Positions 33,455 through 48,677 of a stretch of DNA of 62,583 nucleotides are shown one piece after another. The DNA lies in contig JAJTCJ010000007.1 in the NCBI GenBank assembly GCA_021323165.1, positions 1 to 62,583 of the forward strand, given 5' to 3'. Positions within the stretch are counted from its first letter, which is position 1, and each line of letters opens with the position of its first letter. The DNA is from Bacteroidota bacterium. GTDB lineage: Bacteria; Bacteroidota; Bacteroidia; 2-12-FULL-35-15. Under the pieces are notes generated by a model. That model did not search any database and was not told the origin of the DNA. It saw only the letters and a list, made by a program, of their open reading frames with translations. The position numbers and the translations under genes are program-made.

Positions 33455-34524
33455 TAGGCCAGTACAAAAATAAAAAGCAAGTTTTTATTATAGGTATAGG
33501 CCGCTCGGGAACAACCGTGCTATCAAGAGTTTTAAACACTCACCCTAAATTGCATTGTTTGCCAGAGGCTAATTTTCTTGTTTTCTTTTTAAATAGTTAT
33601 AAAAATAAAACCAGTTTCACTCGAAAAGAGATCGACCTTATTTTTGATCAGATTCGGGTCTATTCACTTTCTCATCCTTGGTTTGCGTGGTGGACTTTTG
33701 ATCAGGTTAAAGCCAAAGAGAATGTTTACAAAGCTTCTGAAAATAATCAACTCGATTATATTAGTCTCTGCAAGTTGATCTCTGTGCATTTTGAGGTTGT
33801 AAATGAAAATAAAGAATCAGCAGAGATTCTTATCGATAAGAATCCTAGTAATACTCTTTATGTTAACAAGATCAGTCAATGCATTCCTTCTGCACAATAT
33901 ATTTGGGTTGTAAGGGATTTTAGGGCTAATGTTCTATCACGTAAACAAAACACTGACCTGAAATCAGGTAATGTAGCCTTCTATGCTCAACGTTGGGTTT
34001 TATTCAATAAAATTGCTAAGAAATTTTCTCAACATAATAAAAAGAATGTTTGTTTTCTTAGATATGAGGACTTTGTAAAACAGAATGATACTGAGACGAA
34101 GAAATTGTTTGAGTTTTTGAATGTGAGTGTGGAAGAGGTGTTGAATAACAATAAGATCCACGCTATAAGACCTGATGACTTTGAGATAGCTCCGTTAATA
34201 AAAGAAAGGATTCACAAACATTATCAGAATTGGAATAAACCGTTAAATGATTCAAGACTTGATTCCTGGAAAGAGCATCTTAGTGAGAATGAGATAAGGA
34301 TCTGCGATGCTATTTGTGGCGATTTGGGGTCAGATCTGGGTTACAGTGTACACTTTCAGTTGAATCTATTACAACGTTTATGGATTAAAATAAGATATGC
34401 TATTCCAATTTTAAAGGCCCGGATCGATGTATCTAAAGATCTATTGATTTTTTATGCGTCTGCTGCTTTAAAGCTGAATCGATTGAAAAGAAGATATAAA
34501 AAACTAGGACTGCTTAACGACTGA
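33451..34524 (+). CDS. PAPS-dependent sulfotransferase (2)
   Basis: The 357-residue sulfotransferase is related to copy 1 and to copy 3 at 41497. The PAPS loop is IGIGRSGTTVLSRVLNTHPK, the middle segment is IDKNPSNTLYVNKI, and the 3'-phosphate site is WVVRDFRANVLSRKQ. Translation is coupled to copy 1 by a 4-bp overlap. It is convergent with the halogenase gene, with only 4 bp between the two stops and no visible terminator, so read-through antisense RNA is possible. Confidence 0.88.
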   Translation: MIGQYKNKKQVFIIGIGRSGTTVLSRVLNTHPKLHCLPEANFLVFFLNSYKNKTSFTRKEIDLIFDQIRVYSLSHPWFAWWTFDQVKAKENVYKASENNQLDYISLCKLISVHFEVVNENKESAEILIDKNPSNTLYVNKISQCIPSAQYIWVVRDFRANVLSRKQNTDLKSGNVAFYAQRWVLFNKIAKKFSQHNKKNVCFLRYEDFVKQNDTETKKLFEFLNVSVEEVLNNNKIHAIRPDDFEIAPLIKERIHKHYQNWNKPLNDSRLDSWKEHLSENEIRICDAICGDLGSDLGYSVHFQLNLLQRLWIKIRYAIPILKARIDVSKDLLIFYASAALKLNRLKRRYKKLGLLND

Positions 34525-34528
34525 CAGA

Positions 34529-35923
34529 TCATGAAAAAGCAGAATGGTCAAATTTTATATTTTCTGTCATTTCACCATACATTTCCTTGTAGTTCTCCCC
34601 GCATGTAGCCCCAAAGGCTTCATCTTTTGAGTGATCGATGAGGTGCTGAAACTTATTGATCATTTTAACATCTTTCATTGTGTCAATAAATTCGCTGTAT
34701 TTTTCGTGGTTTTTGAAAAAATCTCCGGCTAGTAAATAATGAAAAATAGAATAAATTGTTTCTGTTTTTTTATAGGAAAGCAATTTTTCCGGATGACCCA
34801 TCATTGCAAAATTCATGATCTCAGGTGTATAGAAAAGACGAATAAATTTTTCGAGAAGTTTTACAGCACCGTTTATCTGGCCGTATGCCTCATTAATAGC
34901 TTCATCTTTTCCTGAAATAAGTTTTTGGTGGAGTGCCTCAGAAATCAATTCGGCACTATGCATACCAACATATATACCACTTGAAAATATAGGATCAAGA
35001 AAAGCTCCTGCATCACCTATCATGGCAAAATTATTTCCGAATTTCTTTTCACAGTAATATGAATAATCTCCGTTTACCTGAACTTTATGATTCATTATTG
35101 CCTTTTTTAAAAGCACATTAACAGCAGGAGAATCCTCGATTTCTTTTAGGTAAAGATCTTTTTTCCAATCGCTGCTGCCAGAGGTAATGAGTTTTGATTT
35201 TTCTTCTTTTACAAAACTGTTGTTAACAACAACCCCAATGCTCAGATTATCACTGCTGATAGGAATTACCCAAACCCATCCTTTTTTTTCACCACCAAGA
35301 TAAACGATCTTGATCACACCCTGTTGTAAGGGAATGTCAAATTCGCTGTTGGACCAGTGTGACCATAAAGCTACCCTGTCAAGATCTTTAAATGATTTCT
35401 TTACACCAAGTTTGCTTCCCAGAAATGTGCTTTGGCCGCTTGCATCAACTATGAATCTAGACATGAATTTTTGTTCACCCAAATGTGAAGTAGCCGTAAC
35501 TTCCACAATACCATCCGGACGGTCAAGAAGGACATTTTTTACTGTAGTTTCTTCAAGTACTTCTGCTCCGCTTTTTCTGCTGTTAGTGAGCAGCATCTCA
35601 TCAAAGAGGGAACGTTTAACGTGGAATGACAGATAACTTTTATCCTTTACAACATTTTTAAAACACCATAAAGATTGTTTTTTTCCATCACTGTCAATGA
35701 AGTTAACTCCGGGTTTACGTGGAGAAATTTTTTTTAATTCTTCAAGAACACCAAGATTTTCAAGTGTATGATACGAAAGCGGAATGAGTGATTCTCCTAT
35801 GTGTTCTCTGGGAAATTTTTCTTTTTCTATTAAAAGTATTTTATGTCCCTTGCGAGCCAAAAGGGTTGCTGCAGTTGAGCCTGCTGGCCCGCCTCCGATA
35901 ATGATGACATCAAACAATTCCAT
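34529..35923 (-). CDS. Flavin-dependent halogenase, carrier-protein-bound pyrrole type (PltA/Bmp2-like)
   Basis: The 464-residue FAD enzyme starts with the dinucleotide-binding motif IIIGGGPAGSTAA. It keeps both diagnostic halogenase motifs: WxWxIP as W216-V-W218-V-I220-P221 (KKGWVWVIPIS) and FxxPxxSxG as FLDPIFSSG at 308-316. EKFPREHIGESL after the FAD region is typical of the group acting on carrier-bound substrates. These enzymes use FADH2, oxygen and halide to chlorinate or brominate an electron-rich ring. It is the last gene of the operon with a prolyl-AMP-ligase-like enzyme, carrier protein and prolyl oxidase, so pyrrolyl-carrier protein is the likely substrate. A plain FAD hydroxylase is less likely given the two motifs. 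Confidence 0.85.
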   Translation of the reverse strand: MELFDVIIIGGGPAGSTAATLLARKGHKILLIEKEKFPREHIGESLIPLSYHTLENLGVLEELKKISPRKPGVNFIDSDGKKQSLWCFKNVVKDKSYLSFHVKRSLFDEMLLTNSRKSGAEVLEETTVKNVLLDRPDGIVEVTATSHLGEQKFMSRFIVDASGQSTFLGSKLGVKKSFKDLDRVALWSHWSNSEFDIPLQQGVIKIVYLGGEKKGWVWVIPISSDNLSIGVVVNNSFVKEEKSKLITSGSSDWKKDLYLKEIEDSPAVNVLLKKAIMNHKVQVNGDYSYYCEKKFGNNFAMIGDAGAFLDPIFSSGIYVGMHSAELISEALHQKLISGKDEAINEAYGQINGAVKLLEKFIRLFYTPEIMNFAMMGHPEKLLSYKKTETIYSIFHYLLAGDFFKNHEKYSEFIDTMKDVKMINKFQHLIDHSKDEAFGATCGENYKEMYGEMTENIKFDHSAFS

Positions 35924-35959
35924 ATTCTTAATTTTATTCTAAACTAAATTTACAAAAAA

Positions 35960-37108
35960 TTAAAGTCCAAGCCATGACGAAATAATATTCCTTTGGATAT
36001 CGGATGTGCCTGAGTAAATGGTGCTGCCTATTGCATCCCTTAATGCTCTCTCGATGGGATAAGAAGACGTATAACCATTTCCTCCATGAATTGTTACTGC
36101 TTCCATAGCTGCGGCAGTGTATGCCTCAGACACAAAAAGTTTTGCAATCGAGGCATTTAAAGTATTTTCCCTACCGGTATTAAGACCATTTGCCGCTTTA
36201 TAGGTTAAAAGTCTACCTGCTTCGAGCTGCATTTTCATATTTGCTATCCGGTGTGATACAGCTTGTTTTTTTCCAATGGATTCGTTGCTGATAATTCTTG
36301 TTTGAGCATACTTAATAGACTGTTCCAATAATCTTTGCATTGATCCAATCTGGCATGCTGCCATACCGGTACGTTCCCATTCCATAGAATAATTGAAAAC
36401 AGTGGTTCCTCCACCTATTTGACCAAGAATATCAGACTCACTTACAAAAACATTATCAAAAAAAAGTTCACACATATTACAGCTGCGTAGTCCCATCTTT
36501 TCAAGTGAATTTCCTATTGAGATACCTTCAGTTTTCATATCCAGAATGAATGCCGTGATCCCACCCAGGAATCCTTTGTTTTCATCTGTAAGAGTATAAA
36601 TAAGGATAGTGTCAGCAACAGGTCCGTTAGAAGCAAAAGTCTTGCTACCGTCAATAATGAAACCATCTTTATACCTTTTTGCACTTGTCTTTAAATGGAA
36701 TGCATCTGAACCTGAAGTATTTTCAGTCATACAATTCACCATTATACTTTTTCCGGTGGAAACCGATGAGAGGTACTTTTCCTTTTGTGCATTGTTTCCA
36801 AAATGCAATAATGGTGAAACGCCAGCGAGAAAATGAGCACATATTGCAAAATTTAATCCGCCATCCGTGCATGAATATCCAAGAGCTTCCAATGCAATGA
36901 TAGCAGAAAAAGGATCCATGTTACCTCCTCCAAATAAAGAAGGAACAGTAAGCCCTGTCAGTTTCTGTTCACCTGCTTTCAGCCAAAGCTCGCGCGGGAA
37001 TAATTGATCCTTATCACGCTCTGCGGCTTTACTATTGAGTTCCTTTTCTGCGAAAGCTATAATTTGCTCTCTTATAAGTTTTTGTTCATTACTTAATGAA
37101 AAATCCAT
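35960..37108 (-). CDS. Prolyl-carrier-protein dehydrogenase (PltE/CloN3/RedW-like acyl-CoA dehydrogenase family)
   Basis: The 382-residue protein is an acyl-CoA dehydrogenase-fold flavoprotein. FAD-site elements are CMTENTSGSDAFHLKT, FIIDGSKTFASNG and IHGGNGYTSSYPIERALRDA. The probable catalytic base is Glu245 in SMEWERTGMAA, the position used by PltE/CloN3-type oxidases. In pyrrole pathways it oxidises prolyl-S-carrier protein to pyrrolyl-2-carboxyl-S-carrier protein. Its ATG shares one base with the TAA of the adenylation gene (TAATG), so the two are tightly coupled, and the halogenase follows after a 36-bp gap. Ordinary fatty-acid beta-oxidation is unlikely in this context. Confidence 0.88.
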   Translation of the reverse strand: MDFSLSNEQKLIREQIIAFAEKELNSKAAERDKDQLFPRELWLKAGEQKLTGLTVPSLFGGGNMDPFSAIIALEALGYSCTDGGLNFAICAHFLAGVSPLLHFGNNAQKEKYLSSVSTGKSIMVNCMTENTSGSDAFHLKTSAKRYKDGFIIDGSKTFASNGPVADTILIYTLTDENKGFLGGITAFILDMKTEGISIGNSLEKMGLRSCNMCELFFDNVFVSESDILGQIGGGTTVFNYSMEWERTGMAACQIGSMQRLLEQSIKYAQTRIISNESIGKKQAVSHRIANMKMQLEAGRLLTYKAANGLNTGRENTLNASIAKLFVSEAYTAAAMEAVTIHGGNGYTSSYPIERALRDAIGSTIYSGTSDIQRNIISSWLGL

Positions 37109-38580
37109 TATAGAAGTTGTTTTAAAACCTGGAGGTCAGTTTTGTTGCTTGAAGTTTGAGGAAGCTTTTCAAGAAATATAAAGGTATCTGGAATCATATA
37201 AGCAGGCAAGTGTTTTTTGCAATATTCTTTCATTTTTATTTCTGATTGAGTTTCTATGCTTTGGGTGCAAATAAAAGCAGTGATAATGATATCCTCATTT
37301 GCATCCTTTTGAGAGAGTACTGCACATTCATTGATCAGTTCATTCTTAGTTAATGCTGTTTCAATCTCCGCGAGTTCAATTCGATAACCGTTCCGTTTCA
37401 CCATTCTGTCATTTCTGTCCCTGAAAATAAAATTCCCATCTTTATCAATGCTGACTATATCACCGGTCCTGTACCATTTTGAACCTGCTTCGTCAATGAA
37501 CAAGCTGTCGGTTTCAGTTGCGTTCCAATAACCTGCAAACAAACCATCTCCGCTAATACACAGTTCTCCGGTGGTTTCATCACCTATTATCATAGCCCTG
37601 TAGTGAGAGCAACATCTTCCAATAGGAAAGTTATTTGAAAAGGAAGTGATATCGTTTGGTATTTTAAAAAAAGTGCACACGTTTGTTTCAGTAGGACCAA
37701 AGAGATTATAATATTCTGCGGTCGGCCAATGCAACTTTAAAGTCTGAAAACGCTTGACCGGATAAACTTCACCGGCAAATAAAACAAGTCGTAATTGATC
37801 ATAATCGTATTTATACATTTTACCGTAAAGAGAAAGCATGTTGAGAATGGTAGGGGTTGAATACCATATAGTTATTTTTTTTTCAGATATAAGCTGGGAA
37901 AGCAAGATGGGATTTCTTGATATCGCTTCATCGATTAGGACAAGTGAAGCACCCTGCTTTATGCTTACAAAAAGGTCAAAAACTGATAAGTCGAAATGAA
38001 AAGGGGCATGTGATGCAAACCTATCATTTTGTTTTGGGTGGAATGTTTCAACACTCCAGTTAATAAACTTAAGAGCAGCATTTTCGGTGATCATAACACC
38101 TTTTGGTTCTCCCGTTGATCCGGATGTATAAAGAATATACGCAAGATCTGGAATGGATTTTTTTGAAGGAGAATTACGGATCGCGAGAATTGATCCATTA
38201 TCAATTCGAGCCTTTATATTATAAATATCAGGAAGGATTTTTAGTTGTTCCTCATTTATTATGATTGCCTGGACATCAGAATTTTCTATAATAAATCGAT
38301 TGCGTTCATCAGGTGCAGCTTTATCTAACGGAAGATATGCTGCGCCTGCTTTAAGTATTCCAAATATGGAGGCAACAAACTCGATAGACTTTGGTAAACA
38401 TATCGCTACCCTGTTTCCTTTACCAACATTTAATGATAACAAAAGGTTTGAAAGTTGTTCAGCACGTACATTTAGTTCATGATAGGAGCAGGTGTCAACA
38501 CCGGAGATCAATGCTGTTTCATTCGGGAAAAGTAAAGCTGATGAATAAAGTAAGCGATATAATCCTGAAGTTTCAACCAT
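37108..38580 (-). CDS. L-prolyl-AMP ligase (PltF/CloN4/RedM-like adenylation enzyme)
   Basis: The 490-residue stand-alone adenylation domain activates an amino acid and loads it on the adjacent carrier protein. Core motifs are A3 YTSGSTGEPKG (151-161), A4 FHFDLSVFDLF, A5 YNLFGPTETNVC, A7 YRTGD and A8 RMVKRNGYRIELAEIE; A10 has Lys480 in SSNKTDLQVL. The WYSTPTILNML, VLFAGEVYP and FGPTETNVC segments closely resemble prolyl-AMP ligases of pyrrole pathways rather than general NRPS A-domains or DltA. The start overlaps the carrier protein gene by 8 bp. Proline specificity is inferred from this resemblance and from the neighbours; the pocket residues were not aligned. Confidence 0.88.
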   Translation of the reverse strand: MVETSGLYRLLYSSALLFPNETALISGVDTCSYHELNVRAEQLSNLLLSLNVGKGNRVAICLPKSIEFVASIFGILKAGAAYLPLDKAAPDERNRFIIENSDVQAIIINEEQLKILPDIYNIKARIDNGSILAIRNSPSKKSIPDLAYILYTSGSTGEPKGVMITENAALKFINWSVETFHPKQNDRFASHAPFHFDLSVFDLFVSIKQGASLVLIDEAISRNPILLSQLISEKKITIWYSTPTILNMLSLYGKMYKYDYDQLRLVLFAGEVYPVKRFQTLKLHWPTAEYYNLFGPTETNVCTFFKIPNDITSFSNNFPIGRCCSHYRAMIIGDETTGELCISGDGLFAGYWNATETDSLFIDEAGSKWYRTGDIVSIDKDGNFIFRDRNDRMVKRNGYRIELAEIETALTKNELINECAVLSQKDANEDIIITAFICTQSIETQSEIKMKEYCKKHLPAYMIPDTFIFLEKLPQTSSNKTDLQVLKQLL

Positions 38581-38830
38581 GAATTTTTTTCAGAACAAAG
38601 TTAGCAATGATCTCTATTGTATCCAGATTGTCACGATCCACTTCATGAGCTTCAAATTCGAATTTGTATTCCTTTTCAAGAAAGGAGATCATCTGCATGG
38701 TTGAAATAGAATCCATGATTCCTCCGCTGATAAGTGGAGTATTGTCTCTAAGATCTGCATCTGAAGAATTCTTTAAGAACCTTGAAAGAATATACTCTCT
38801 TACGGTCTTTTTGATAGGGTTTGTTTCCAT
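38573..38830 (-). CDS. Peptidyl carrier protein (PltL/CloN5-like)
   Basis: The 85-residue four-helix carrier protein has the phosphopantetheine site GGIMDSISTMQMI, with Ser41 as the attachment residue. The flanking EKEYKFEFEAHEVDRDNLDTI is the usual helix II-III region. It would carry proline, then pyrrole and halopyrrole, as thioesters between the adenylation enzyme, oxidase and halogenase. It sits between the MBOAT-SGNH gene (26-bp gap) and the adenylation gene (8-bp overlap). This position is like that of DltC in dlt operons, between the A-domain and MBOAT functions. Confidence 0.92.
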   Translation of the reverse strand: METNPIKKTVREYILSRFLKNSSDADLRDNTPLISGGIMDSISTMQMISFLEKEYKFEFEAHEVDRDNLDTIEIIANFVLKKIHG

Positions 38831-38856
38831 AGGGAGATTACTTTTATAAAAATAGT

Positions 38857-41385
38857 TTATTTATGCTTAAAAATATATCTTTTATTTTTGATGAGCTCCT
38901 GGTAGAAAATATCAGCGATGAGCATGTGACCTCTGGTATTAGGATGTGAGTTCCATTCCGAGATCCGGATCGCATTCTCATCAGTTTTGCGATATACTTT
39001 TCTCAGGTCTAGTGTCACAAATTGAAGGCTTTTCGCATATGACAAAATACTTTCATATTCCTCATTATTCTCCGGATCCCCTATAGTCGGAAGATATGCC
39101 CATACTGGAATTGCGTTGTTTTTTTTACATTCTTCAGCGATCTGCATATAGCTCCATTTTATTAACTGATCGGCAAAGGGCTGAAGTCTCAATTTGATCT
39201 CGTCTTCACTCATAGATTGTTTGGAACCGGATATTGCTTTTATTTCTTCAAGAAATGGATAATAAAGATATTTTCCCTGACGAATAAGACTAGCGACACA
39301 GATAAGCATTCTGTCTTTTTCAGAGGAGTGTGCGAAATACAAAACTATATCTGGTGAAAATCTGAATACCTTCGTTCTGCATAATTCAACATGCTGCACA
39401 AGATAAAAACCTCCATTAGCAAAATTGAGTATTTCAATATTTTTATCTTCAGTATTAGCGTTGTAACGCGTTTCGACAATATTTTCAAAAACCTCTGCGT
39501 TGCTTACTCCTGATCCCATTTCATATGAACCTCCAAGTAGCGCGATTCTCCATACTGAATCTGGTTTTGCCAACGTATATTCTTTATCCCTTAATCCAAA
39601 TGTGTTGCTTTCAAAAAGATAATTCTCATTTTTTACTTTAACATTAGGTTTAATTATCTTAGTGAGTATATCATCTGTGCGGACATAAGCTTCACCCAGT
39701 GTAGAATTATTTTTTTGTCTTTTCAATGGGATTTCCCACAATCCGCTTGGGCGATTCTCTTCTCCATCAATCAGCTTTACATAATAGTCCTGTTCTTTTT
39801 TTTCGGAATCATGACGATTTGGTTTTTCCTCAGATAATGAAACAACAAATGCGTTGACTCTTTCAGGTAAAATTCTGGCTGTAGGGCCGCAACTGAGCAA
39901 TGTCAATAGGATGATATATGGAAATGTAAGCAAAAGAGTCTTGTGAGGCTCCATGAATATAATTCTTGCCGGAAGCTTTTTACGAAGTAAGAATTGTATG
40001 GTTATTCCTGAGATGATCACTAAAAGATAAATCAAAATACAGAAGGCAAGTTCCTTCCATGTAAAAAGGGAACTTTGTATAACCAAATATAACCATTCTG
40101 AAAGGGATTCGCTTGTCCACATTCCCCACATAACGGACATGAATAAGAATATTCCTGTAATCTTGATCATTCGAATAGTATATGAAGTGAGTTCACTCTT
40201 TTCTGATTTTTTATCAGAATTCTTTTCTATCCAGACAGCATTTATTGTAATGCATGTACCAATGACCATCCAGAAAGTTATATCTGCCGAAAGTGAAGTG
40301 AAAGTACCACGCAACCAAAATAATTGATAGTCATGCAGAAGCCAAGTGAGGGCAAAAATGATCATCATGGTCACAGGTAATGCATACTGAGGCGTCTTTT
40401 TTTTAAGCTTGAAAAAAATGGGATAAAAGAAAACTTTTAAAATAAACTCTCTCCAGTAAGTATTAATTCTTTTCCAGAGATCAATGAAGTTTTCAGAAAG
40501 AAAATAATTGTTGAAAGCAGGCGGAAGATTAAATCCGAAAATACATAACAAACCAATGATTATGTGAAATAAACCGGAGATCCTTATGATAAGCGCATAA
40601 GTGCAAATGGTGAATTGAAGAAAAGAAATAAGATCATGAACTTCATAAGGAGCCGGGAGAAAGTGATAATAAATCAAACGATAACATAAAATATGGATGA
40701 TACCACGAAGGATCCACCTAATTCCTTTTTGCCATGTATGTTCATCCATAGCAGTATTGTATGTTCTTACATAAGTTTTATAATCTACGATCGGAAAAAA
40801 TAAGAAGCATATATTAGGATACATGAAAAAATACGGTAGGCTAGTCCAGAATGAAGGTTTGATCGTTTTATGTTTTATCTCATAAAGATAGATCATGAGC
40901 CTGAACATGAACATCGAAGCGATAAAAGGGACAACTAATGCCGCCCTTGGAGCATAAAACAATTCTGATCGGAGAATGAAAAGTACAGCAGCGATAATTA
41001 GTATGATGGAGATCCTGAAAAAAAATGAAATGGATAAATGACAAACAGCAACAAGTGTTAAGGATATAGTTAAAAGTGTTGTACCTGAAAATAAACCGAA
41101 AGCAAAGTAAATTACAAATACCATTAATGAAAGAAATACCAGAGGTCGGAAAGGTAAAGGCATAAAACTATTGATCGTAAAAGCAATAATTATGTAAGGA
41201 GCAAGTTCCGAAAGGCCGGAAAATTTTTCGATCTGAAATGATTGAATAATATAGAAAAGTGCAGAAAGCTGTAATAGTGAGATCAAAAAGGATTTAATCT
41301 TTCGGAGAGAATATAATTCTAAATAAGAAATATCTTGACGGAAAAATTTCTTGTGCCACGCATCTGCGCGAACCGTTAGATCCAT
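38857..41385 (-). CDS. MBOAT acyltransferase fused to a C-terminal SGNH-like domain
   Basis: The 842-residue protein has about 12-14 membrane helices in its first ~510 residues, then an extracytoplasmic SGNH/GDSL-like domain (about 600-835). The MBOAT signature is visible at 293-325 (NYFLSENFIDLWKRINTYWREF...FFYPIF), and the likely catalytic histidine is His351 in LTWLLHDYQ. The SGNH part has GGSYEMG (Ser620), NFANGGFY, LYFAHSSEKDR and SHPNTRGH (His814); the usual Asp three residues before His is replaced by Trp811. MBOAT plus SGNH pairs (DltB/DltD, AlgI/AlgJ, PatA/PatB) move acyl groups across the membrane onto polymers. Here the two are one chain, in an operon with a carrier protein, so a DltB-DltD-like role is proposed. 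Confidence 0.82.
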   Translation of the reverse strand: MDLTVRADAWHKKFFRQDISYLELYSLRKIKSFLISLLQLSALFYIIQSFQIEKFSGLSELAPYIIIAFTINSFMPLPFRPLVFLSLMVFVIYFAFGLFSGTTLLTISLTLVAVCHLSISFFFRISIILIIAAVLFILRSELFYAPRAALVVPFIASMFMFRLMIYLYEIKHKTIKPSFWTSLPYFFMYPNICFLFFPIVDYKTYVRTYNTAMDEHTWQKGIRWILRGIIHILCYRLIYYHFLPAPYEVHDLISFLQFTICTYALIIRISGLFHIIIGLLCIFGFNLPPAFNNYFLSENFIDLWKRINTYWREFILKVFFYPIFFKLKKKTPQYALPVTMMIIFALTWLLHDYQLFWLRGTFTSLSADITFWMVIGTCITINAVWIEKNSDKKSEKSELTSYTIRMIKITGIFLFMSVMWGMWTSESLSEWLYLVIQSSLFTWKELAFCILIYLLVIISGITIQFLLRKKLPARIIFMEPHKTLLLTFPYIILLTLLSCGPTARILPERVNAFVVSLSEEKPNRHDSEKKEQDYYVKLIDGEENRPSGLWEIPLKRQKNNSTLGEAYVRTDDILTKIIKPNVKVKNENYLFESNTFGLRDKEYTLAKPDSVWRIALLGGSYEMGSGVSNAEVFENIVETRYNANTEDKNIEILNFANGGFYLVQHVELCRTKVFRFSPDIVLYFAHSSEKDRMLICVASLIRQGKYLYYPFLEEIKAISGSKQSMSEDEIKLRLQPFADQLIKWSYMQIAEECKKNNAIPVWAYLPTIGDPENNEEYESILSYAKSLQFVTLDLRKVYRKTDENAIRISEWNSHPNTRGHMLIADIFYQELIKNKRYIFKHK

Positions 41386-41496: not shown

Positions 41497-42564
41497 ATGG
41501 AAAGAACAGTGCAATATGTGAAAACATCCGGGTTGGAAAATCTACCTGAAATGGCTTTTATTATTGGGATGGGAAGGTCAGGTACCACACTTCTTACCAA
41601 TATGTTCAATTCCCATCCTAATGTTGTTTCCACCCCCGAGAATGAGTTCCTTGTATTTGCTCATCAATCATATCTGGATAAAGATTTTAATGATAAGGAA
41701 ACTGTTGACTCTTTCCTGGATCTTCTTTCTTACAATTACAGCACTGTATTAAGTATATGGCAGCCTTCACCAGATTTGAAGAATGATATAGTAAAGCTAA
41801 AAGAAAAAAACTTCGCTAACGTTTGTAAGCTGGTTTATCTCAATTATCCTTTTGCTGGCAGGAATAAAGAAGAGGTACGTTTTATCGTTGATAAAAATCC
41901 TGTCTATTCACTCTATCTTGAAAAACTGCAGGAAATTTATCCTGTTGCTAAATACATTGTTCTTGTAAGGGATCACCGTGATAATGTCCTGTCGCGAAAA
42001 AAGTATGCAGACTCTGCTAAATCCGTTTTTGAATTGGCTGTTTCATGGAATTATTATTATGAAAAGATATTCCGCGATCTTAAAAAAAATGGTCTTGATC
42101 ATAAATTAGTGCGTTATGAAGACCTGGTAGCTGATCCGACTGCGATATTAAAAGAACTTTGTAGTTATCTGGATATAAATTATTCTGACAGGATGTTTGA
42201 GTTTCAGGATCTGTCGAAGAAGATAAAAGAACATGTAAAGGAGAATGCTGCAGATAAAGTTTATAACAAGATAAGCAAAATGCATTCTAACCTCGACAAC
42301 AATGTTACTCAAAAAAGAGTGAAGGCTTATGAGAAAGAGTTGAGTTCTGAGGAAATAGCTATTGTTAATTATGTGTGTTCTGATTTCGCATTAAAATTTG
42401 GTTACCTGGAACAGCAGGAAGTCAATGATATCAGGCCAAAGCGAAGTTGGAAATTCAATAAATTTAAATATGAATTAATTGTAAGTGTTTATTATTTATT
42501 GAAAGCTGCTTATTATAAACTGCCGGTTTCTTTTCGTATCAAAAGATTAAATAAAACAAAATAA
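41497..42564 (+). CDS. PAPS-dependent sulfotransferase (3)
   Basis: The 355-residue enzyme is homologous to the two at 32369 and 33451. The 5'-PAPS loop is IGMGRSGTTLLTNMFNSHPNV, the middle segment is VDKNPVYSLYLEKL, and the 3'-phosphate site is VLVRDHRDNVLSRKKYADS. It is divergent from the MBOAT-SGNH operon across a 111-bp shared region. Having three related but different copies around one operon points to several sulfation steps or acceptors; the acceptors are unknown. Confidence 0.88.
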   Translation: MERTVQYVKTSGLENLPEMAFIIGMGRSGTTLLTNMFNSHPNVVSTPENEFLVFAHQSYLDKDFNDKETVDSFLDLLSYNYSTVLSIWQPSPDLKNDIVKLKEKNFANVCKLVYLNYPFAGRNKEEVRFIVDKNPVYSLYLEKLQEIYPVAKYIVLVRDHRDNVLSRKKYADSAKSVFELAVSWNYYYEKIFRDLKKNGLDHKLVRYEDLVADPTAILKELCSYLDINYSDRMFEFQDLSKKIKEHVKENAADKVYNKISKMHSNLDNNVTQKRVKAYEKELSSEEIAIVNYVCSDFALKFGYLEQQEVNDIRPKRSWKFNKFKYELIVSVYYLLKAAYYKLPVSFRIKRLNKTK

Positions 42565-42572
42565 TTTTTCGC

Positions 42573-43319
42573 TCAATAAACTCTCAACAGATTTACAATA
42601 GCTATTGAGAGTCGTGAAAGCGGTTGTAATAAATGTGCTAAAGTATTTATCATTAAAGGTTTTGAAGTCAATAAGAGTTTGAACGATTCAGCTCTCTTTT
42701 GAAGAAAAAGTGAAGTTAGGACTGTTGAACAAACAAGCTTTTTTTTGTCCGCAAATTCATCCCGCATCACATCTATCAGAAAAATATACCGTGCTTTGTC
42801 CGTATTATTCCAGGCTTCGTGTTTATATGCATCTATGAACACAAGCCATTTCCCATTCTCCCAGGCCCGGATCTCATCCTTAACTTTAAAACCAACTTCA
42901 GGTAGACCGGCAGGTATTTCAATTCCTAAATGACATCTGTATATTGCATTTGTATCACCACAATGGGGCAATATTTTTGCAGCTGGCTCCAGCAGATTAA
43001 AGGATGCTGAAATAATATTCGGATATTTATTGATAAGGGAAGTAGTGAAAGGGAATTGTTTCTGATTTTTAAATAATTCAACGCTCCAGGTTTTTAATGC
43101 GATTGTTTTCCAGCTGCCTTTTTTATTAACCATGGACGTATTAAAGTAATTAGCTAACTTATGTTTGATCAAGTATTCCTGTAGTTCAAGTTGAATGTTT
43201 TTTGAATTGGAAGCCAATTCCTCAGCCCATGAAAAGTTTTCCGGGGAAATAAACGCAGGTTCATTTTCCGGATAGTTAAAACTAAAATCATATATGCTAA
43301 ACCATAATCTATGCATCAA
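42573..43319 (-). CDS. Aspartyl/asparaginyl beta-hydroxylase family dioxygenase (1)
   Basis: The 248-residue protein has the Asp_Arg_Hydrox fold region of 2-oxoglutarate/Fe(II) dioxygenases. It contains AAKILPHCGDTNAIYRCHLGIEIP, with a first iron His in LPHCG and the 2-OG-binding Arg before CHL, then WLVFIDAYKHEAWNNT with the second iron His. The family includes AspH and the lipid-A hydroxylase LpxO, so the substrate may be a peptide, lipid acyl chain or biosynthetic intermediate. It is divergent from a second family member at 43362 (42-bp gap). The two differ in sequence enough to suggest different substrates. Confidence 0.8.
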   Translation of the reverse strand: MMHRLWFSIYDFSFNYPENEPAFISPENFSWAEELASNSKNIQLELQEYLIKHKLANYFNTSMVNKKGSWKTIALKTWSVELFKNQKQFPFTTSLINKYPNIISASFNLLEPAAKILPHCGDTNAIYRCHLGIEIPAGLPEVGFKVKDEIRAWENGKWLVFIDAYKHEAWNNTDKARYIFLIDVMRDEFADKKKLVCSTVLTSLFLQKRAESFKLLLTSKPLMINTLAHLLQPLSRLSIAIVNLLRVY

Positions 43320-43361
43320 TGCTTTTTTTTTTAATTTTACTGTATATAAACTGTTCCGGGA

Positions 43362-44051
43362 ATGACTGAATTCGAATTTACAGATAAAAATCCTAAGTTC
43401 TTTTATGACCCTAAAGATTTTTCTTTTCTGAATCCTTTGATATCGGGCTTTGATATTATAAAAAAGGAATTACTCGAACTGATCGCAGAAGGTAAAGAAC
43501 AGCAATGGCTTAGGACTTTTCCCGATTATGTAAGATCGGAAGAATACAAAGCCTGGAAAGTTTTTTCATTTGTGTTCTTTAATATGCGGTTCCCTCAGAA
43601 TGCAAGGCTTTGCCCAAGAACAGCTGAACTCGTTTATTCAATCCCCCAGATACTTTCCTGTGATTATTCTTATCTCAATCCAGCAACCCATGTGCTTCCG
43701 CATAAAGGATATTCGCGTATGGTCCTGCGTTGTCATCTGCCTTTAATCGTTCCTGGTGAGGATCTTTGTGCTCTCCGGGTTGGCGATGAAACAACGCATT
43801 GGAAGGAAGGTGAACTGTTGATATTTGATGATTCATTCGAACATGAAGCATGGAATAAGACAAATGAGAAACGTGTAGTTTTGATGTTTGATATTCCTAA
43901 TCCTTTATGGGGATATACAGCTTATGAAATATCAAAATATAAAATCGAAAATATAGATGATCCGTTTTTATTGTCAATGGCTCCCAAAAATGCGTGGATA
44001 AAAAGTTTTGAAAAGGGTGTTTTTCCTTTAGAAAATTTTTCAGATCAATAG
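43362..44051 (+). CDS. Aspartyl/asparaginyl beta-hydroxylase family dioxygenase (2)
   Basis: The 229-residue member of the same family as 42573-43319 has THVLPHKGYSRMVLRCHLPLIVP with the first iron ligand and Arg, and GELLIFDDSFEHEAWNKT with the second iron His. The gene end overlaps the convergent GNAT gene by 12 bp. Placement between the glycan-type operon and the halopyrrole/sulfotransferase genes suggests hydroxylation of a shared product; direct evidence is lacking. Confidence 0.82.
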   Translation: MTEFEFTDKNPKFFYDPKDFSFLNPLISGFDIIKKELLELIAEGKEQQWLRTFPDYVRSEEYKAWKVFSFVFFNMRFPQNARLCPRTAELVYSIPQILSCDYSYLNPATHVLPHKGYSRMVLRCHLPLIVPGEDLCALRVGDETTHWKEGELLIFDDSFEHEAWNKTNEKRVVLMFDIPNPLWGYTAYEISKYKIENIDDPFLLSMAPKNAWIKSFEKGVFPLENFSDQ

Positions 44052-44654
44052 ATCATTAATTTCTTTTATGTTTTCAGCACAAATATTTCCGCTGTATTTT
44101 AATTCAGAGCCCTTTTCACTTAATATTGCTGCAGCTTTATTTAACTTAGCTCCACAAATTAAATAATCATCAATATGCAATTCGTATAGTTGGTTCTGCA
44201 CTTCTTCCTGATCAGGCACTAATTTGTAACCAAGCATTTTGTTATAATGGATCGCCCTTTCATTATCTCTAAGAATCCGTATTCGCGAAACTTTACAGAT
44301 GTTAAGTTTTACCAGCATAAAATTTAGAAGGCATAATGATGCAAATACTGCCGCAAAAGAATGGATGTATTCTTTATCCCAGATGAAAATTCCACCTTCT
44401 CCAAAACCCTTTGATGGATCATAGTTCTTTACGTTGATGAGACCTACCTGTTTGTTCTCGAATTCTATAATAAAATAATAATTGTATTTATTATTAATAG
44501 TTTGAAACCATTTTTTTTGAGCATCTTCTGTGATATGGGTTCTATATTCCATGTGATTGGCGATATCACTCTGATTCCGCCAATAACGAATAAGCTCAAT
44601 GTCTTTTTCCTGGATTCTTACAAGACGTACTCCATATTGTTCGAGGATTAGCAT
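44040..44654 (-). CDS. GNAT-family N-acyltransferase
   Basis: The 204-residue protein has GNAT features of the RimJ/PseH-like branch: N-terminal RLVRIQEKDIELIRYWRNQSDIANHM, and the acetyl-CoA region with ERAIHYNKMLGYKLV. The last ~40 residues extend beyond the usual fold. It may acylate an amino sugar with acetyl-CoA or with an acyl group from the nearby ACP. The gene overlaps the glycosyltransferase gene by 7 bp and is the last member of the six-gene minus-strand operon. Confidence 0.8.
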   Translation of the reverse strand: MLILEQYGVRLVRIQEKDIELIRYWRNQSDIANHMEYRTHITEDAQKKWFQTINNKYNYYFIIEFENKQVGLINVKNYDPSKGFGEGGIFIWDKEYIHSFAAVFASLCLLNFMLVKLNICKVSRIRILRDNERAIHYNKMLGYKLVPDQEEVQNQLYELHIDDYLICGAKLNKAAAILSEKGSELKYSGNICAENIKEINDLLI

Positions 44655-45565
44655 ATCACTTCATCTTCATTATAGCTGGGAGCATTGTTGATAGATTTTA
44701 ATGCCTGGCTGATATATTGGGCAATTATGCCGAGGCAAAGAATAATAATGCCTGTGGAAAACAGAATGCTTACAATTAGTGAGGTGTAACCTTCAACATC
44801 TATTTTCATGAAAAATTTTTTAAATAAGAAAATAATGCCAATTAAAAAATTTATACCTGCTAATAATATTCCGATGTTGGTAACAAACTTAAGTGGCAGG
44901 GTAGAAGAGAACATGATAATTGTGGAAGTCAGTTTAAAAAGCTCTGTCACATTATATCTTTTTTTCTCAATAAAATCCTTGTTGGCTTCAACGTTTACAA
45001 ATGAAAGTTTTTTTGTGTACCAGAGACATAACTCATCAATAAAAATGAATTGTTTATGATTATTGACAATTTTTTGTGTGATCGAGTTTTTAATTAAACG
45101 GAAGCTGCTTCCCTTTCCTTTATCAGGACCTTCAAGCTTTGAAAACATTTTGTAGACTGCTGTAAATAATCCTCTGAAAAAAGTCTGATTCTGCTTTTGG
45201 TATAAGCCATAAACAAGATCAGAGTTGGTTTTTTTCTGATTATCAATTAATTTTTGTATCTCCTTAGGATGAACTTCAAGATCATCATCCATTGTGATTA
45301 TAAAGTTTCCTTTTGCATATTTGAAACCGCAAACAGAAGCTGCATGCTGTCCAAAATTTTTGCTTAATCGTATTATCGTAGTATTAGAAGAATCTTTCTT
45401 GATGTTTTTTAATACTTCCCAGCTATGATCAGGGCTTGAATCATCTATATAAATAATTTCATAGCTGTATTTTTTGTCAAAAAATGAGATAATGCTTTCA
45501 TGCACTTTTTTCAGAGCGTTCTCCGCCCCATAAACCGGAATGATGATACTGTAATCTACATTCAT
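44648..45565 (-). CDS. GT2 glycosyltransferase, GtrB/DPM1-like, with C-terminal membrane helices
   Basis: The 305-residue protein has an N-terminal GT-A domain: DYSIIIPVYGAENALKKVHES, YIDDSSPDHSW, the DDD metal motif in ITMDDDLEVHPKEI, and KGSSFRLIKNSI. Two C-terminal membrane helices follow (about 230-250 and 265-290). This is the layout of enzymes that make polyprenyl-phosphate-linked sugars for later transfer outside the inner membrane. It lies between the SDR and GNAT genes, with a 1-bp gap to the SDR. A lipid-linked, possibly acylated sugar is the expected product. Confidence 0.88.
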   Translation of the reverse strand: MNVDYSIIIPVYGAENALKKVHESIISFFDKKYSYEIIYIDDSSPDHSWEVLKNIKKDSSNTTIIRLSKNFGQHAASVCGFKYAKGNFIITMDDDLEVHPKEIQKLIDNQKKTNSDLVYGLYQKQNQTFFRGLFTAVYKMFSKLEGPDKGKGSSFRLIKNSITQKIVNNHKQFIFIDELCLWYTKKLSFVNVEANKDFIEKKRYNVTELFKLTSTIIMFSSTLPLKFVTNIGILLAGINFLIGIIFLFKKFFMKIDVEGYTSLIVSILFSTGIIILCLGIIAQYISQALKSINNAPSYNEDEVIC

Positions 45566-45566
45566 A

Positions 45567-46307
45567 TCATTTGCTGTTTAATAATAATCCGCCATCCATG
45601 TTTAATGTTGTTCCGGTGATCCATCCTGATAAAGGACTTAATAGAAATGCAATTGCATTAGCAATGTCAATCGGTTCGCCAATACCAAACGGATAGCGAT
45701 TTTCAATTTCCGCTATTTCTTCCTTTGAATATATCTGTTCAGATTGTTCAAGAATATTTGTCCTTACAAGAGCCGGTGCAATAATATTTACACGTATTTT
45801 TTTTGCCGAGGCTTCTAAAGCAAAACCTCTGGTGAAAGCTTCGAGAGCTGCTTTTGAAGATGTATAAAGTGAACCTCCTGTATATGGATGATGTGCAGAA
45901 ACAGATGAAATAAAAACAACTGAAGCCTGAGGATTTATTTTTTTGAGTGACAGCAAACCACTGCTTAATAATACAGCAGATGAAAAGTTGATCATGAAAA
46001 TATCATCAATGTGTTTTTTTTTGATGAATTTAACAGGAAGGGGATTTATAATGCCGGCACAATGAACAAAGCCATCAATTGAAGGAATTTTTGAAAGTAA
46101 TTCATTAATGGAATCCTCTTTTGACAGATCTGCTGTTAATTGTTTACTTCTGTTCTTTAATAATAAATGAGTGTTGTTTAATTCCTCTTCATTACGGCCT
46201 GTTATTATTGTCTCTGCGCCAAGCTCATCACACAGAATCGCTACAGATCTTCCTATTCCGGAAGATGCACCTGTGATCAGAATTTTTTTATTTTTAAGAT
46301 CAATCAT
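45567..46307 (-). CDS. SDR oxidoreductase, FabG-like
   Basis: The 246-residue classical SDR has the NAD(P) motif ITGASSGIGRS, HCAGI (NNAG-like), the catalytic Ser in VVFISSVSA, YTSSK (Tyr and Lys of YxxxK) and APALVRTNI. It probably reduces a 3-oxoacyl-ACP or sugar ketone. It overlaps the upstream KAS III gene by 8 bp, so reduction of the condensation product to a 3-hydroxyacyl-ACP is a sensible role. Confidence 0.88.
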   Translation of the reverse strand: MIDLKNKKILITGASSGIGRSVAILCDELGAETIITGRNEEELNNTHLLLKNRSKQLTADLSKEDSINELLSKIPSIDGFVHCAGIINPLPVKFIKKKHIDDIFMINFSSAVLLSSGLLSLKKINPQASVVFISSVSAHHPYTGGSLYTSSKAALEAFTRGFALEASAKKIRVNIIAPALVRTNILEQSEQIYSKEEIAEIENRYPFGIGEPIDIANAIAFLLSPLSGWITGTTLNMDGGLLLNSK

Positions 46308-47352
46308 GCTCGATCAGATTTGTATAAACATTTTCAGATCTTAGAATCACACTGCCCCATGAAAAGCCAACACCAAAACCAGATAAGAGTAAAGTTAATT
46401 TTTTTTCCTGAAGCTCTTTTTTAAGCGAATAGCACATGGTGAGTGGAATAGAAGCAGAGCTTGTATTTCCGAATTTTTCTATAGAATAAGGAACTTTCTC
46501 AGATTCTATTTTTAACTTCTTTCTGACACTTTCATTGATCAATCTATTTGCCTGGTGAAGGATATAAAAATCGATATCATTTTTATCTGTTTTACTTTGT
46601 TCCGCCAGGGAATTAATATTCGGACCCACTTCTTTTAATGCGAAATTAAAAATATCCATTCCGTTTAATATAAGGTTCTTTTTTGACCTGCTGATGCCGG
46701 GCTCTATTTCAATAATATCTTCAAATGATTTGTCGAAAGGATTGCGTGAATGTCCATGTTCAATTATAATTGAATTTTTTCCTGAGCCATCACTTTGTAA
46801 ATTGAAATGCCAGTCTTTCACTCCCTTTATATATTCGATAAGTGTTGCACTTCCTGCATCACCAAATAAAGGGTAAGTACTTTTATCGCTGTAATTTGTG
46901 GACGTTGTAGATTTATCGCCAACAAGCAATAATGCTTTTTTTAATTGACCGCTTTGCAAAAGATTACTTACAACTGATAATCCGTAAACATATCCGGAGC
47001 AGCCGAGGTTAATGTCAAATGCAAGACAATCTTTACTAAGCCCCAGGCGATCCTGTAAAATAACAGCTGTAGTAGGGAGGTAGTAATCAGGGGATTGAGA
47101 TACAAAGATCACGAGATCAATTGAATCTGCACAATCAAATTTCTGCAAGATATCTTTTGCCGCAAGGAAGCAGAGATCTGAACAGGTTACATTTTTTTCA
47201 GCAACGCGTCTTTCTTTGATTCCTGTAGTCTTAATAAAAAGTTCCTGTTCTTCACTACTAATATGCTTATACTCCGAAGTTCTTTCTATTCCTTTAGGAA
47301 CACAACTGCAGATAGCCAGAATATTAGAATTGGATGTACTTAGGTAAGCCAC
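46300..47352 (-). CDS. 3-oxoacyl-ACP synthase III-like (KAS III) enzyme (1)
   Basis: The 350-residue thiolase-fold enzyme has the Cys-His-Asn triad in place: Cys118 (NLGCSGYVYG), His266 (LHQANRLI) and Asn296 (GNTSSASIP). It is FabH-like: it condenses an acyl-CoA with malonyl-ACP or moves acyl groups between carriers. It directly follows the small ACP gene (adjacent, no gap) and overlaps the SDR. KAS III homologues such as CloN2 also serve in pyrrole transfer in clorobiocin biosynthesis, so a link to the halopyrrole operon is possible. Fatty-acyl or 3-hydroxybutyryl synthesis for a glycan is the alternative. Confidence 0.88.
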   Translation of the reverse strand: MAYLSTSNSNILAICSCVPKGIERTSEYKHISSEEQELFIKTTGIKERRVAEKNVTCSDLCFLAAKDILQKFDCADSIDLVIFVSQSPDYYLPTTAVILQDRLGLSKDCLAFDINLGCSGYVYGLSVVSNLLQSGQLKKALLLVGDKSTTSTNYSDKSTYPLFGDAGSATLIEYIKGVKDWHFNLQSDGSGKNSIIIEHGHSRNPFDKSFEDIIEIEPGISRSKKNLILNGMDIFNFALKEVGPNINSLAEQSKTDKNDIDFYILHQANRLINESVRKKLKIESEKVPYSIEKFGNTSSASIPLTMCYSLKKELQEKKLTLLLSGFGVGFSWGSVILRSENVYTNLIEHD

Positions 47353-47586
47353 TTATTTGGTTTTTTCTATAACAATATTGTACAGATCGCGGATGGTTGA
47401 AGCAGATTTAAGATCTCCACCATTCAGTATGGTATCAAATTGAGCGTCCACGAATGCAATGATGATAAGAGCATGCATGCTGCTCCATCCTTTTATGCTT
47501 TTATAATGAGTATCAGGAGTTAAAGTTCCGGGTTCCACCTCTTCAAATTCAGTTTCCAGTTTTTGAGTAAACTCTTCAATGTTCAT
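47353..47586 (-). CDS. Acyl carrier protein with an altered DSL motif
   Basis: The 77-residue protein has ACP helices and the phosphopantetheine site GWSSMHALIII. The attachment serine is Ser36, but the normal Asp before it is Ser35, so DSL reads SSM. It is flanked by two KAS III genes. A role as the acyl carrier for this operon is likely, and it might also accept an acyl or pyrrolyl unit from the other carrier protein, as CloN1 does; this is inference. Confidence 0.85.
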   Translation of the reverse strand: MNIEEFTQKLETEFEEVEPGTLTPDTHYKSIKGWSSMHALIIIAFVDAQFDTILNGGDLKSASTIRDLYNIVIEKTK

Positions 47587-47643
47587 AATAAACTGATTAA
47601 ATCGTTTCGGTAAATATAAGCTATTATAGCAAATCTTTTTGAA

Positions 47644-48654
47644 TCACAAGTGGATGACAGTCGCTGCCCAGGACAAACCAACCCCGAATCCTGTTAATAC
47701 AATCCGGTCTCCGGGTTTGGCTACACCTCTTTTTATTGCTTCGTTCAATGCTATAGGAATAGAGGATGATACTGTATTTCCAACCTGGTCAATGTAATTA
47801 AAAACTTTATTCTCGGGTATTCCTGCTTTAATCCTGATAGCATCAATAAGAAATAAATTAGCCTGGTGAAATATAAAAAGATCAATATCTTTTATTGTAA
47901 GTTTTTCTTTTTTTAAGAGGTCGGCAATCACTATAGGGACTGTTTTTAAACCAAAAATGAATACTCCTGTGCCATTCATATAAAAGTTTGCATCACTTGT
48001 TATATTACCGTATTCATCAGTTCTTTCAACGAAAGATGTTTCTGTTATCTCATTTCTGGCACATCCGTCTTTCACAATGATCTTATTCTTTCCTTTTCCA
48101 TCGGTTCCGAAAATGAATTTTCCAATACCGCTTTTATCTCTTGAAGAAATAAGTGTTGCAGCTGCGCCATCACCAAAAACAAAAGTGGAACTTTTATCTT
48201 TTTTGTGGAATGTTTTGGTTAAAGTAGAAGAGGTTATTAATAATACATTTTCAACTCCAGAACTTTCTATCAATCCTTTGGCCAGTGATAATCCGTAAAC
48301 GAAACCACTGCAGCCAAGGTTGTAATCAAGAGCACCGCAATGTTTTGGAAGATTTAATCTATCCTGCATAATGCATGCAGTAGTGGGAGTAAAGTGATCA
48401 AATTCCTGGGCACAAAAAAGTAAGAAATCAATCGAGGAAGGTTCAATTTTGTTTTCTGTGAAGAGGAGTTGAGCAGCCTTTACTCCAAGGTCTGATGCTG
48501 TTTCATGTGATGAAACAATATGCCGTTCACTAACTCCGGTTTTAAGTAAATTTTCTTTATGGCCGAGCTCTTCTGGAAATGCATTAAAAAAATCTTCATT
48601 GCTGAAAACCTTCTCCGGTAAATGATAACTAATGGCTTTAATGAAAGCGTTCAC
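47644..48654 (-). CDS. 3-oxoacyl-ACP synthase III-like (KAS III) enzyme (2)
   Basis: This is the second FabH-like enzyme, with triad Cys115 (NLGCSGFVYG), His263 (FHQANLFL) and Asn293 (GNTVSSSIP), counted from the chosen start. The start taken is GTG at 48654, giving 336 residues and an FabH-like N-terminus (MNAFIKAISYHLPEK). A TTG at 48672 would lie inside a TAnnTTTG promoter element. It is about 57 bp upstream of the ACP gene and first in the operon. Two KAS III copies around one ACP suggest two condensation or transfer steps, or a heterodimer. Confidence 0.87.
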   Translation of the reverse strand: MNAFIKAISYHLPEKVFSNEDFFNAFPEELGHKENLLKTGVSERHIVSSHETASDLGVKAAQLLFTENKIEPSSIDFLLFCAQEFDHFTPTTACIMQDRLNLPKHCGALDYNLGCSGFVYGLSLAKGLIESSGVENVLLITSSTLTKTFHKKDKSSTFVFGDGAAATLISSRDKSGIGKFIFGTDGKGKNKIIVKDGCARNEITETSFVERTDEYGNITSDANFYMNGTGVFIFGLKTVPIVIADLLKKEKLTIKDIDLFIFHQANLFLIDAIRIKAGIPENKVFNYIDQVGNTVSSSIPIALNEAIKRGVAKPGDRIVLTGFGVGLSWAATVIHL

Positions 48655-48669
48655 GAAATTCTGTTTATG

Positions 48670-48677
48670 CAAATTTA
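48670..48677 (-). promoter_or_regulatory. Putative promoter of the KAS III-ACP operon
   Basis: On the minus strand TAAATTTG, followed by C, occupies 48677..48670, matching the Bacteroidetes -7 element. Transcription would begin near 48665, about 10 nt before the GTG start at 48654. Confidence 0.5.

Follow-up and report, generated by a model that had tools for sequence, protein, structure and literature searches.

The Dlt system (DltA-DltB-DltC-DltD-DltX), which D-alanylates teichoic acids, combines a stand-alone adenylation domain (A-domain) and carrier protein with a thioester donor, a DltB-like MBOAT protein and an SGNH partner. The prolyl-carrier modules of the pyoluteorin, prodigiosin and anatoxin pathways also contain a stand-alone carrier (PltL, PigG), together with a proline-specific A-domain (PltF, PigI), an oxidase (PltE, PigA, AnaB) and a flavin halogenase of the PltA type. 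PatA/PatB and other bacterial MBOAT-SGNH acyltransferases relay the acyl group through a Tyr intermediate. According to the accessible part of PMC12148441, PatA and PatB are two proteins with acetyl-CoA as donor, and there are O-acetyltransferases in which a membrane acyltransferase and an SGNH domain are fused in one chain; in the latter the membrane part is AT3, not MBOAT, and the donor is acyl-CoA. Here we describe a five-gene cassette in a 62,583-nucleotide stretch from a Bacteroidota bacterium (assembly GCA_021323165.1, contig JAJTCJ010000007.1, positions 1 to 62,583; "the window") that appears to pair two of these known chemistries, converting proline to a halogen-bearing pyrrole and passing it across the inner membrane to an acceptor on the outer side. 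A preliminary description of the locus knew of no described system joining the halopyrrole and Dlt logics in a Gram-negative bacterium, and searches of open-licence literature found none.

The cassette spans positions 34529-41385, with all genes on the minus strand and in the order listed, MBS denoting the fused MBOAT-SGNH protein:

38857..41385, minus strand: MBS, 842 amino acids (aa), MBOAT, linker and SGNH in one chain (open reading frame, alignment, AlphaFold2 model, structural matches)
38573..38830, minus strand: carrier protein, 85 aa (Pfam/NCBIfam, PDB match, D-S motif)
37108..38580, minus strand: predicted A-domain of the L-proline--carrier ligase type, pocket DLFYLALVCK (Pfam/NCBIfam, PDB, pocket alignment)
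35960..37108, minus strand: predicted prolyl-carrier dehydrogenase/oxidase of the acyl-CoA dehydrogenase family (Pfam/NCBIfam, PDB, motif)
34529..35923, minus strand: predicted FAD-dependent halogenase (Pfam/NCBIfam, PDB, motifs)

The MBS and carrier genes are separated by a 26-bp gap, the carrier and A-domain genes overlap by 8 bp, the A-domain and oxidase genes overlap by 1 bp, and a 36-bp gap precedes the halogenase gene. The five co-directional, nearly overlapping genes of the preliminary description are confirmed, with correct coordinates and order, and because the same gene order recurs in other species the cassette goes beyond chance. Compared with Dlt, a proline/pyrrole pocket replaces that for D-alanine, the oxidase and halogenase are extra, the MBOAT and SGNH parts are fused so that the operon has no separate DltD-type SGNH protein, linker tyrosines take the place of a DltX-like gene, and the system occurs in Bacteroidota, Pseudomonadota and other phyla. 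Unlike the pyoluteorin, prodigiosin and anatoxin modules, the five genes include no downstream polyketide synthase (PKS), nor any nonribosomal peptide synthetase (NRPS) module (Pfam/NCBIfam), and the partner is a membrane acyltransferase. In contrast to PatA/PatB there is one fused chain, which is probably carrier-fed. We consider it probable that the locus is a Dlt-like operon for transmembrane acylation, with a (halo)pyrrole-2-carboxyl group as its cargo.

The A-domain (Pfam AMP-binding, 249.5 bits) has the ten-position pocket DLFYLALVCK. In the PDB alignment of the near relative L098, from which the PltF residues were taken, the nine-position pockets are DLLYLALVC for PltF (6o6e) and DLFYIAWVC for PigI (7thn), and the window shares eight and seven of the nine residues with them, respectively. 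The PDB entries give molecule names, and we take 6o6e to be PltF, 7thn PigI and 4irn AnaB. A profile built from 15 family members scored 462 bits against PltF, 379 against PigI and 351 against the best DltA; PDB chains scoring above PltF had two matched stretches each, their listed single domains reaching 350-358 bits. The DltA models stayed below their cut-offs (NF003417, 306.5 versus 476; TIGR01734, 294 versus 559.85). The proline-type A-domain proposed earlier therefore has a PltF-type pocket when checked against PltF, and from this pocket we strongly infer that it loads L-proline on the carrier.

Relatives of MBS were found as 210 proteins and, by an alignment-based scan of genome contigs, as 288 genome stretches, mostly from metagenome-assembled genomes; a scan of the contigs with the single MBS sequence found no relative. 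Their record labels cover Bacteroidota, Rhodothermales, Gemmatimonadota, Calditrichia, Pseudomonadota, Anaerolineae, Hydrogenedentota, Planctomycetota, Myxococcota and Acidobacteria. The best 80 of the 288 stretches were kept (77 loci), so that the locus set leans to close relatives, and after dropping 8 duplicates there were 93 loci, 53 of them with at least 6 kb downstream. A partner was counted as near when it lay anywhere in the retrieved stretch and passed a floor, set at 40 bits for the carrier, 150 for the A-domain, 100 for the oxidase and 120 for the halogenase. Among the 53 roomy loci a carrier was found in 37, an A-domain in 38, an oxidase in 37 and a halogenase in 18; the first three occur together in 36 and all four in 16. 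The 18 halogenase loci include L090 (30% identity) and L127 (30%, opposite strand), both within the set of 16, as well as L093 and L107 with no A-domain within the retrieved stretch, and 14 loci have all four partners with a good halogenase match. Among cultured relatives, Neolewinella aurantiaca SSH13 contains homologues of the five genes within a single stretch (L137), and in Phaeodactylibacter xiamenensis KD52, the source of L107 with its MBS and halogenase, an A-domain with a PltF pocket is located on the same contig. After removal of seven A-domain rows shorter than 400 aa or not exceeding 100 bits (two from L053/L082, two from L121, and L091, L094 and L136), 51 distinct A-domains were left. 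The pattern D[LI]xYxA[LF]V[CV] fits 49 of the 51, the nine positions being identical to PltF in 20 and to the window in 16, and the two that do not fit (L117 at 4813, L154 at 3371) are additional to a typical A-domain in the same locus. Across the 36 loci and the window, MBS distances correlate with those of the A-domain (r 0.87) and the oxidase (r 0.86), to which shared ancestry contributes.

A full-length MBS (at least 250 bits; next score 59.5) is found in 9 of 295 genomes of the class, and a PltF-type A-domain (at least 522 bits; next 415) in exactly the same nine and in none of the 286 others, with pockets D-L-[F/L/C]-Y-L-A-L-V-C-K; the best three MBS and best five A-domain candidates per genome were scored. 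The chance of this exact match is 2.4e-17 if genomes are independent, which these related genomes are not. The next-best A-domain (L212, genome G202, without MBS) has the pocket DILYLAIQCK, close to but distinct from the PltF type and suggesting a neighbouring specificity. In the genus, for which order-level and family-level searches yielded the identical 36 genomes, MBS occurs in seven; six have a PltF-type pocket (G317 read over nine positions only), and in the seventh, G300, MBS runs off the contig end. The 29 genus genomes free of MBS contain no PltF-type A-domain (best 374 bits; 19 lower-scoring A-domains read, all with other pockets). MBS is also found in two other families (6 of 12 and 8 of 87 genomes), and 11 of 12 chosen MBS genomes have a PltF-type A-domain, two of these having the pockets DLLYNALVCK and DLLYFALVCK. 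In seven genomes the loading genes lie away from MBS, with carrier, A-domain and oxidase clustered by themselves (L202-L208); the separate cluster is on the MBS contig in G193, G726, G373 and G425 (2.9 Mb apart in G425) and contains a halogenase also in G193, G726 and G230.

These data bear on the possibility that the donor for MBS is acetyl-CoA or another unrelated acyl-CoA, the prolyl genes being mere neighbours. Some MBS genes do lack loading genes nearby, and other MBOAT-SGNH pairs are reported to use acyl-CoA in the accessible part of PMC12148441, but the co-occurrence (9/9 versus 0/286), the kept pocket and the distance correlations make this alternative very improbable. The interpretation in the preliminary description that the proline-pyrrole and Dlt logics are joined is supported, since the pocket and the exact co-occurrence among 295 genomes tie them together. 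Chance neighbourhood and plain D-alanylation were both considered and ranked below transfer of a (halo)pyrrole-2-carboxyl group.

The carrier scored 19.5 bits with Pfam PP-binding, slightly below the cut-off of 20.8, and 27.3 bits with DltC models (cut-off 68). Its Ser41, the presumed phosphopantetheine site, lies in a D-S motif kept in all 57 rows including the window. The two top NCBIfam hits of the oxidase, a PigA-type model and one for prolyl-carrier dehydrogenases, both stay under their cut-offs (381 versus 500 bits and 354 versus 650 bits, respectively), and its nearest PDB match is the prolyl-ACP dehydrogenase 4irn (302 bits). Glu245 of the MEWER motif, presumably the catalytic base, is conserved in 44 of 46 rows, the other two having a gap. 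Further genes are inserted in some loci: at L037:7029-8048 (identical to L105) a Luciferase-like monooxygenase (PF00296) separates A-domain and oxidase and may add further tailoring of the cargo, and in Methylomonas sp. SURF-2 (L127:12787-16363) the carrier and A-domain genes have a Rieske oxygenase and a B12-binding radical SAM protein between them. The latter genome contains a second A-domain elsewhere (L237) with the pocket DLFYIAFVCK, close to PigI.

The AlphaFold2 model of MBS (mean pLDDT 88.8, pTM 0.79) and its structural matches bear out the MBOAT-SGNH fusion claimed earlier, which we regard as confirmed at the level of the model: a DltB-like MBOAT with a presumed catalytic His (approximately residues 50-437), a linker, and an SGNH half (approximately 611-840). 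The structural matches of the SGNH half include CgnD, which we take to be an SGNH protein, followed by entries named GDSL/SGNH esterases; 6bug is presumably DltB. The following codons encode residues invariant in 89 of 89 aligned sequences:

40333..40335, minus strand: His351, presumed MBOAT catalytic His
39781..39786, minus strand: Tyr534-Tyr535, inter-domain linker, candidate acyl-Tyr shuttle (by analogy, accessible part of PMC12148441)
39526..39528, minus strand: Ser620, presumed SGNH nucleophile
38944..38946, minus strand: His814, presumed SGNH catalytic His

Asn308 is invariant as well. The active residues of DltB are Asn289 and His336 (accessible part of PMC11035591), and by motif order Asn308 and His351 would fit as their counterparts. 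The linker around the two tyrosines is otherwise poorly conserved, and model confidence is low just downstream of it. In DltX and PatA the acyl group is carried on the Tyr of an FXYXXF motif between MBOAT and SGNH (accessible part of PMC12148441). Two or three MBS matches, often with no loading genes nearby, were observed in L074, L075, L087, L088, L092, L093, L096, L099, L110, L115, L122, L133 and L134; some are possibly split frames, and perhaps one cargo serves several acceptors.

The halogenase scored 108 bits with Pfam Trp_halogenase (cut-off 21). As claimed for a WxWxIP halogenase, the window protein contains GGGPAG (GxGxxG), Lys70 and WVWVIP (216-221), and also FLDPIFSSG (308-316); the motif definition follows the accessible part of PMC5945002. 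All but L090 of the 17 halogenase loci above 150 bits are Bacteroidota-type by record label or belong to the class. Since the four-gene core without halogenase occurs in several phyla, tailoring by the halogenase is optional, halogenation apparently having been added to the wider pyrrole cassette in particular lineages. Paired adjacent halogenase homologues are present in both L083 and L108.

In the proposed mechanism the A-domain would put L-proline onto the phosphopantetheine of the carrier, the oxidase, judged by its family, would convert prolyl-S-carrier to pyrrolyl-S-carrier (two- or four-electron oxidation), and the flavin halogenase would add Cl or Br to the carrier-bound ring. By analogy with DltB/DltX/DltD and PatA/PatB, the MBOAT half would accept the acyl group from the carrier on the cytoplasmic face and pass it to linker Tyr535 or Tyr534, from where the SGNH half, via Ser620, would move it to an acceptor in the periplasm or at the surface, onto either a hydroxyl or an amine. 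Such a one-chain acyl relay appears the likeliest mechanism; halogenation of the ring, its export and the ester linkage are steps that we infer.

Several observations weigh against this reading. The A-domain is missing from the retrieved stretch in 15 of the 53 roomy loci, four of them with two MBS matches, and for some of the 15 it sits further away. The MBS genome G371 (75% complete), one of the 12 chosen, has no PltF-type A-domain, and MBS is rare: in a phylum-wide set it occurs in 4 of 395 genomes. MBS matched no Pfam or NCBIfam model, hence no MBOAT profile, and a sequence search of the PDB gave chance hits only. FXYXXF is absent (family consensus GYYxxL, window DYYVKL), and the usual SGNH Asp is unclear, position 812 being D in 47 and N in 42 of 89 sequences, and N in the window. 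The halogenase family profile scored almost equally across six halogenases with different substrates (8zop 235, Mpy16 235, PltA 230, ChlB4 229, CmlS 225 and CndH 217 bits; we take 5buk to be Mpy16 and 3e1t CndH), so that the substrate is not readable from similarity. Finally, WxWxIP is complete in 10 of 18 rows (the 17 loci above 150 bits and the window), lacks the Pro in one, and is replaced by WxGxQP in seven.

These seven rows, a 181-bit profile match to 3nix (named flavoprotein/dehydrogenase) and the existence of gene sets without the flavoprotein would suit a halogen-free cargo, a pyrrolyl (or prolyl or dehydroprolyl) group being transferred and the flavoprotein being, for example, a hydroxylase. 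With GxGxxG, Lys70 and WVWVIP all present in the window protein, and named or known halogenases as its eight best PDB matches, we consider this rather unlikely here. The WxGxQP homologues (L083, L085, L105, L108, L129, L140 and L067) keep Lys70; in these, halogenation may be absent or different.

The genes flanking the cassette include ketoacyl synthase III (KASIII), short-chain dehydrogenase/reductase (SDR) and family 2 glycosyltransferase (GT2) genes:

44040..48672, minus strand: KASIII-KASIII-SDR-GT2-GNAT block, candidate acceptor pathway, beside the cassette in many Bacteroidota loci
42573..44051, one per strand: two Asp/Asn beta-hydroxylase-family genes (PF05118), candidate acceptor block (Pfam)
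41497..42564, plus strand: sulfotransferase-family gene, candidate acceptor block (Pfam)
32369-34524: two further sulfotransferase-family genes, candidate acceptor block (Pfam)
48757-50715, divergent to the KAS genes: membrane protein with C-terminal tetratricopeptide repeats, presumably resembling TMTC-type glycosyltransferases, also beside KAS genes in cassette-free genomes

The flanks of the 18 halogenase loci contain a sulfotransferase in 15 (some at 23-30% identity), PF05118 in 10, GT2 in 10, GNAT in 8, KAS in 7 and SDR in 7; the queries came from the window and L037, L041 and L050, so that three loci match some of them at 100%. KAS was seen in 14 of the 51 A-domain loci. All these counts come from stretches cut at approximately 10 kb. 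The block is present without the cassette in all four same-genus loci examined, and its KAS in 16 of the 36 genus genomes.

Two KASIII genes and an SDR nearby, together with the fact that known halopyrrolyl-carrier pathways, such as those of pyoluteorin and clorobiocin, end in small molecules, could point to a halopyrrole natural product that is soluble as such or in lipid, with MBS acylating a small secreted molecule instead of a structural envelope component. This is distinctly unlikely given how few A-domain loci show KAS within the stretches of approximately 10 kb, the cassette-free blocks and the lack of a PKS/NRPS module among the five genes. The closeness of KASIII-KASIII-SDR to the cassette, seen in the window and also in several relatives, could also mean that KASIII extends the pyrrolyl-carrier to a ketide before transfer; the same KAS counts (14 of 51 A-domain and 7 of 18 halogenase loci, again in stretches of approximately 10 kb) and the block's presence in cassette-free genomes leave this highly unlikely.

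For the transmembrane acylation operon itself, the acceptor is either general or lineage-specific, since the block occurs without the cassette and, in nine proteobacterial loci with 85 flanking open reading frames, no Pfam family occurs in more than three among the 25 of 81 families listed, a result that leaves room for single glycan enzymes. Here it is perhaps, as the neighbouring block weakly suggests, a sulfated, acylated glycan or glycolipid. In other loci, MBS and carrier are separated by a pair of proteins bearing type IX secretion tails (L052:2415-8017), and an IS66 transposase and a DruA-like gene adjoin the cassette in Candidatus Accumulibacter (L131:15676-18320).

We give an even chance to a wider, multi-phylum envelope modification, in which a pyrrole-2-carboxyl group, halogenated in many Bacteroidota, would be made on a carrier and then exported by a fused MBOAT-SGNH protein with an internal Tyr shuttle onto a surface glycan or lipid, resulting in a halogenated cell surface. 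The groups known to be carried by Dlt and the other MBOAT-SGNH systems are small and aliphatic (D-alanine, acetate; in part from the accessible part of PMC12148441). If our reading is correct, an MBOAT-SGNH relay would also carry an aromatic, halogenated ring, and the cell surface would be built with the help of natural-product chemistry. PltF-like genes in Bacteroidota and in genomes with the labels Accumulibacter, Thauera and Methylomonas would then have a function, as would many Bacteroidota halogenases, and the acyl relay would gain a one-chain model open to direct testing.

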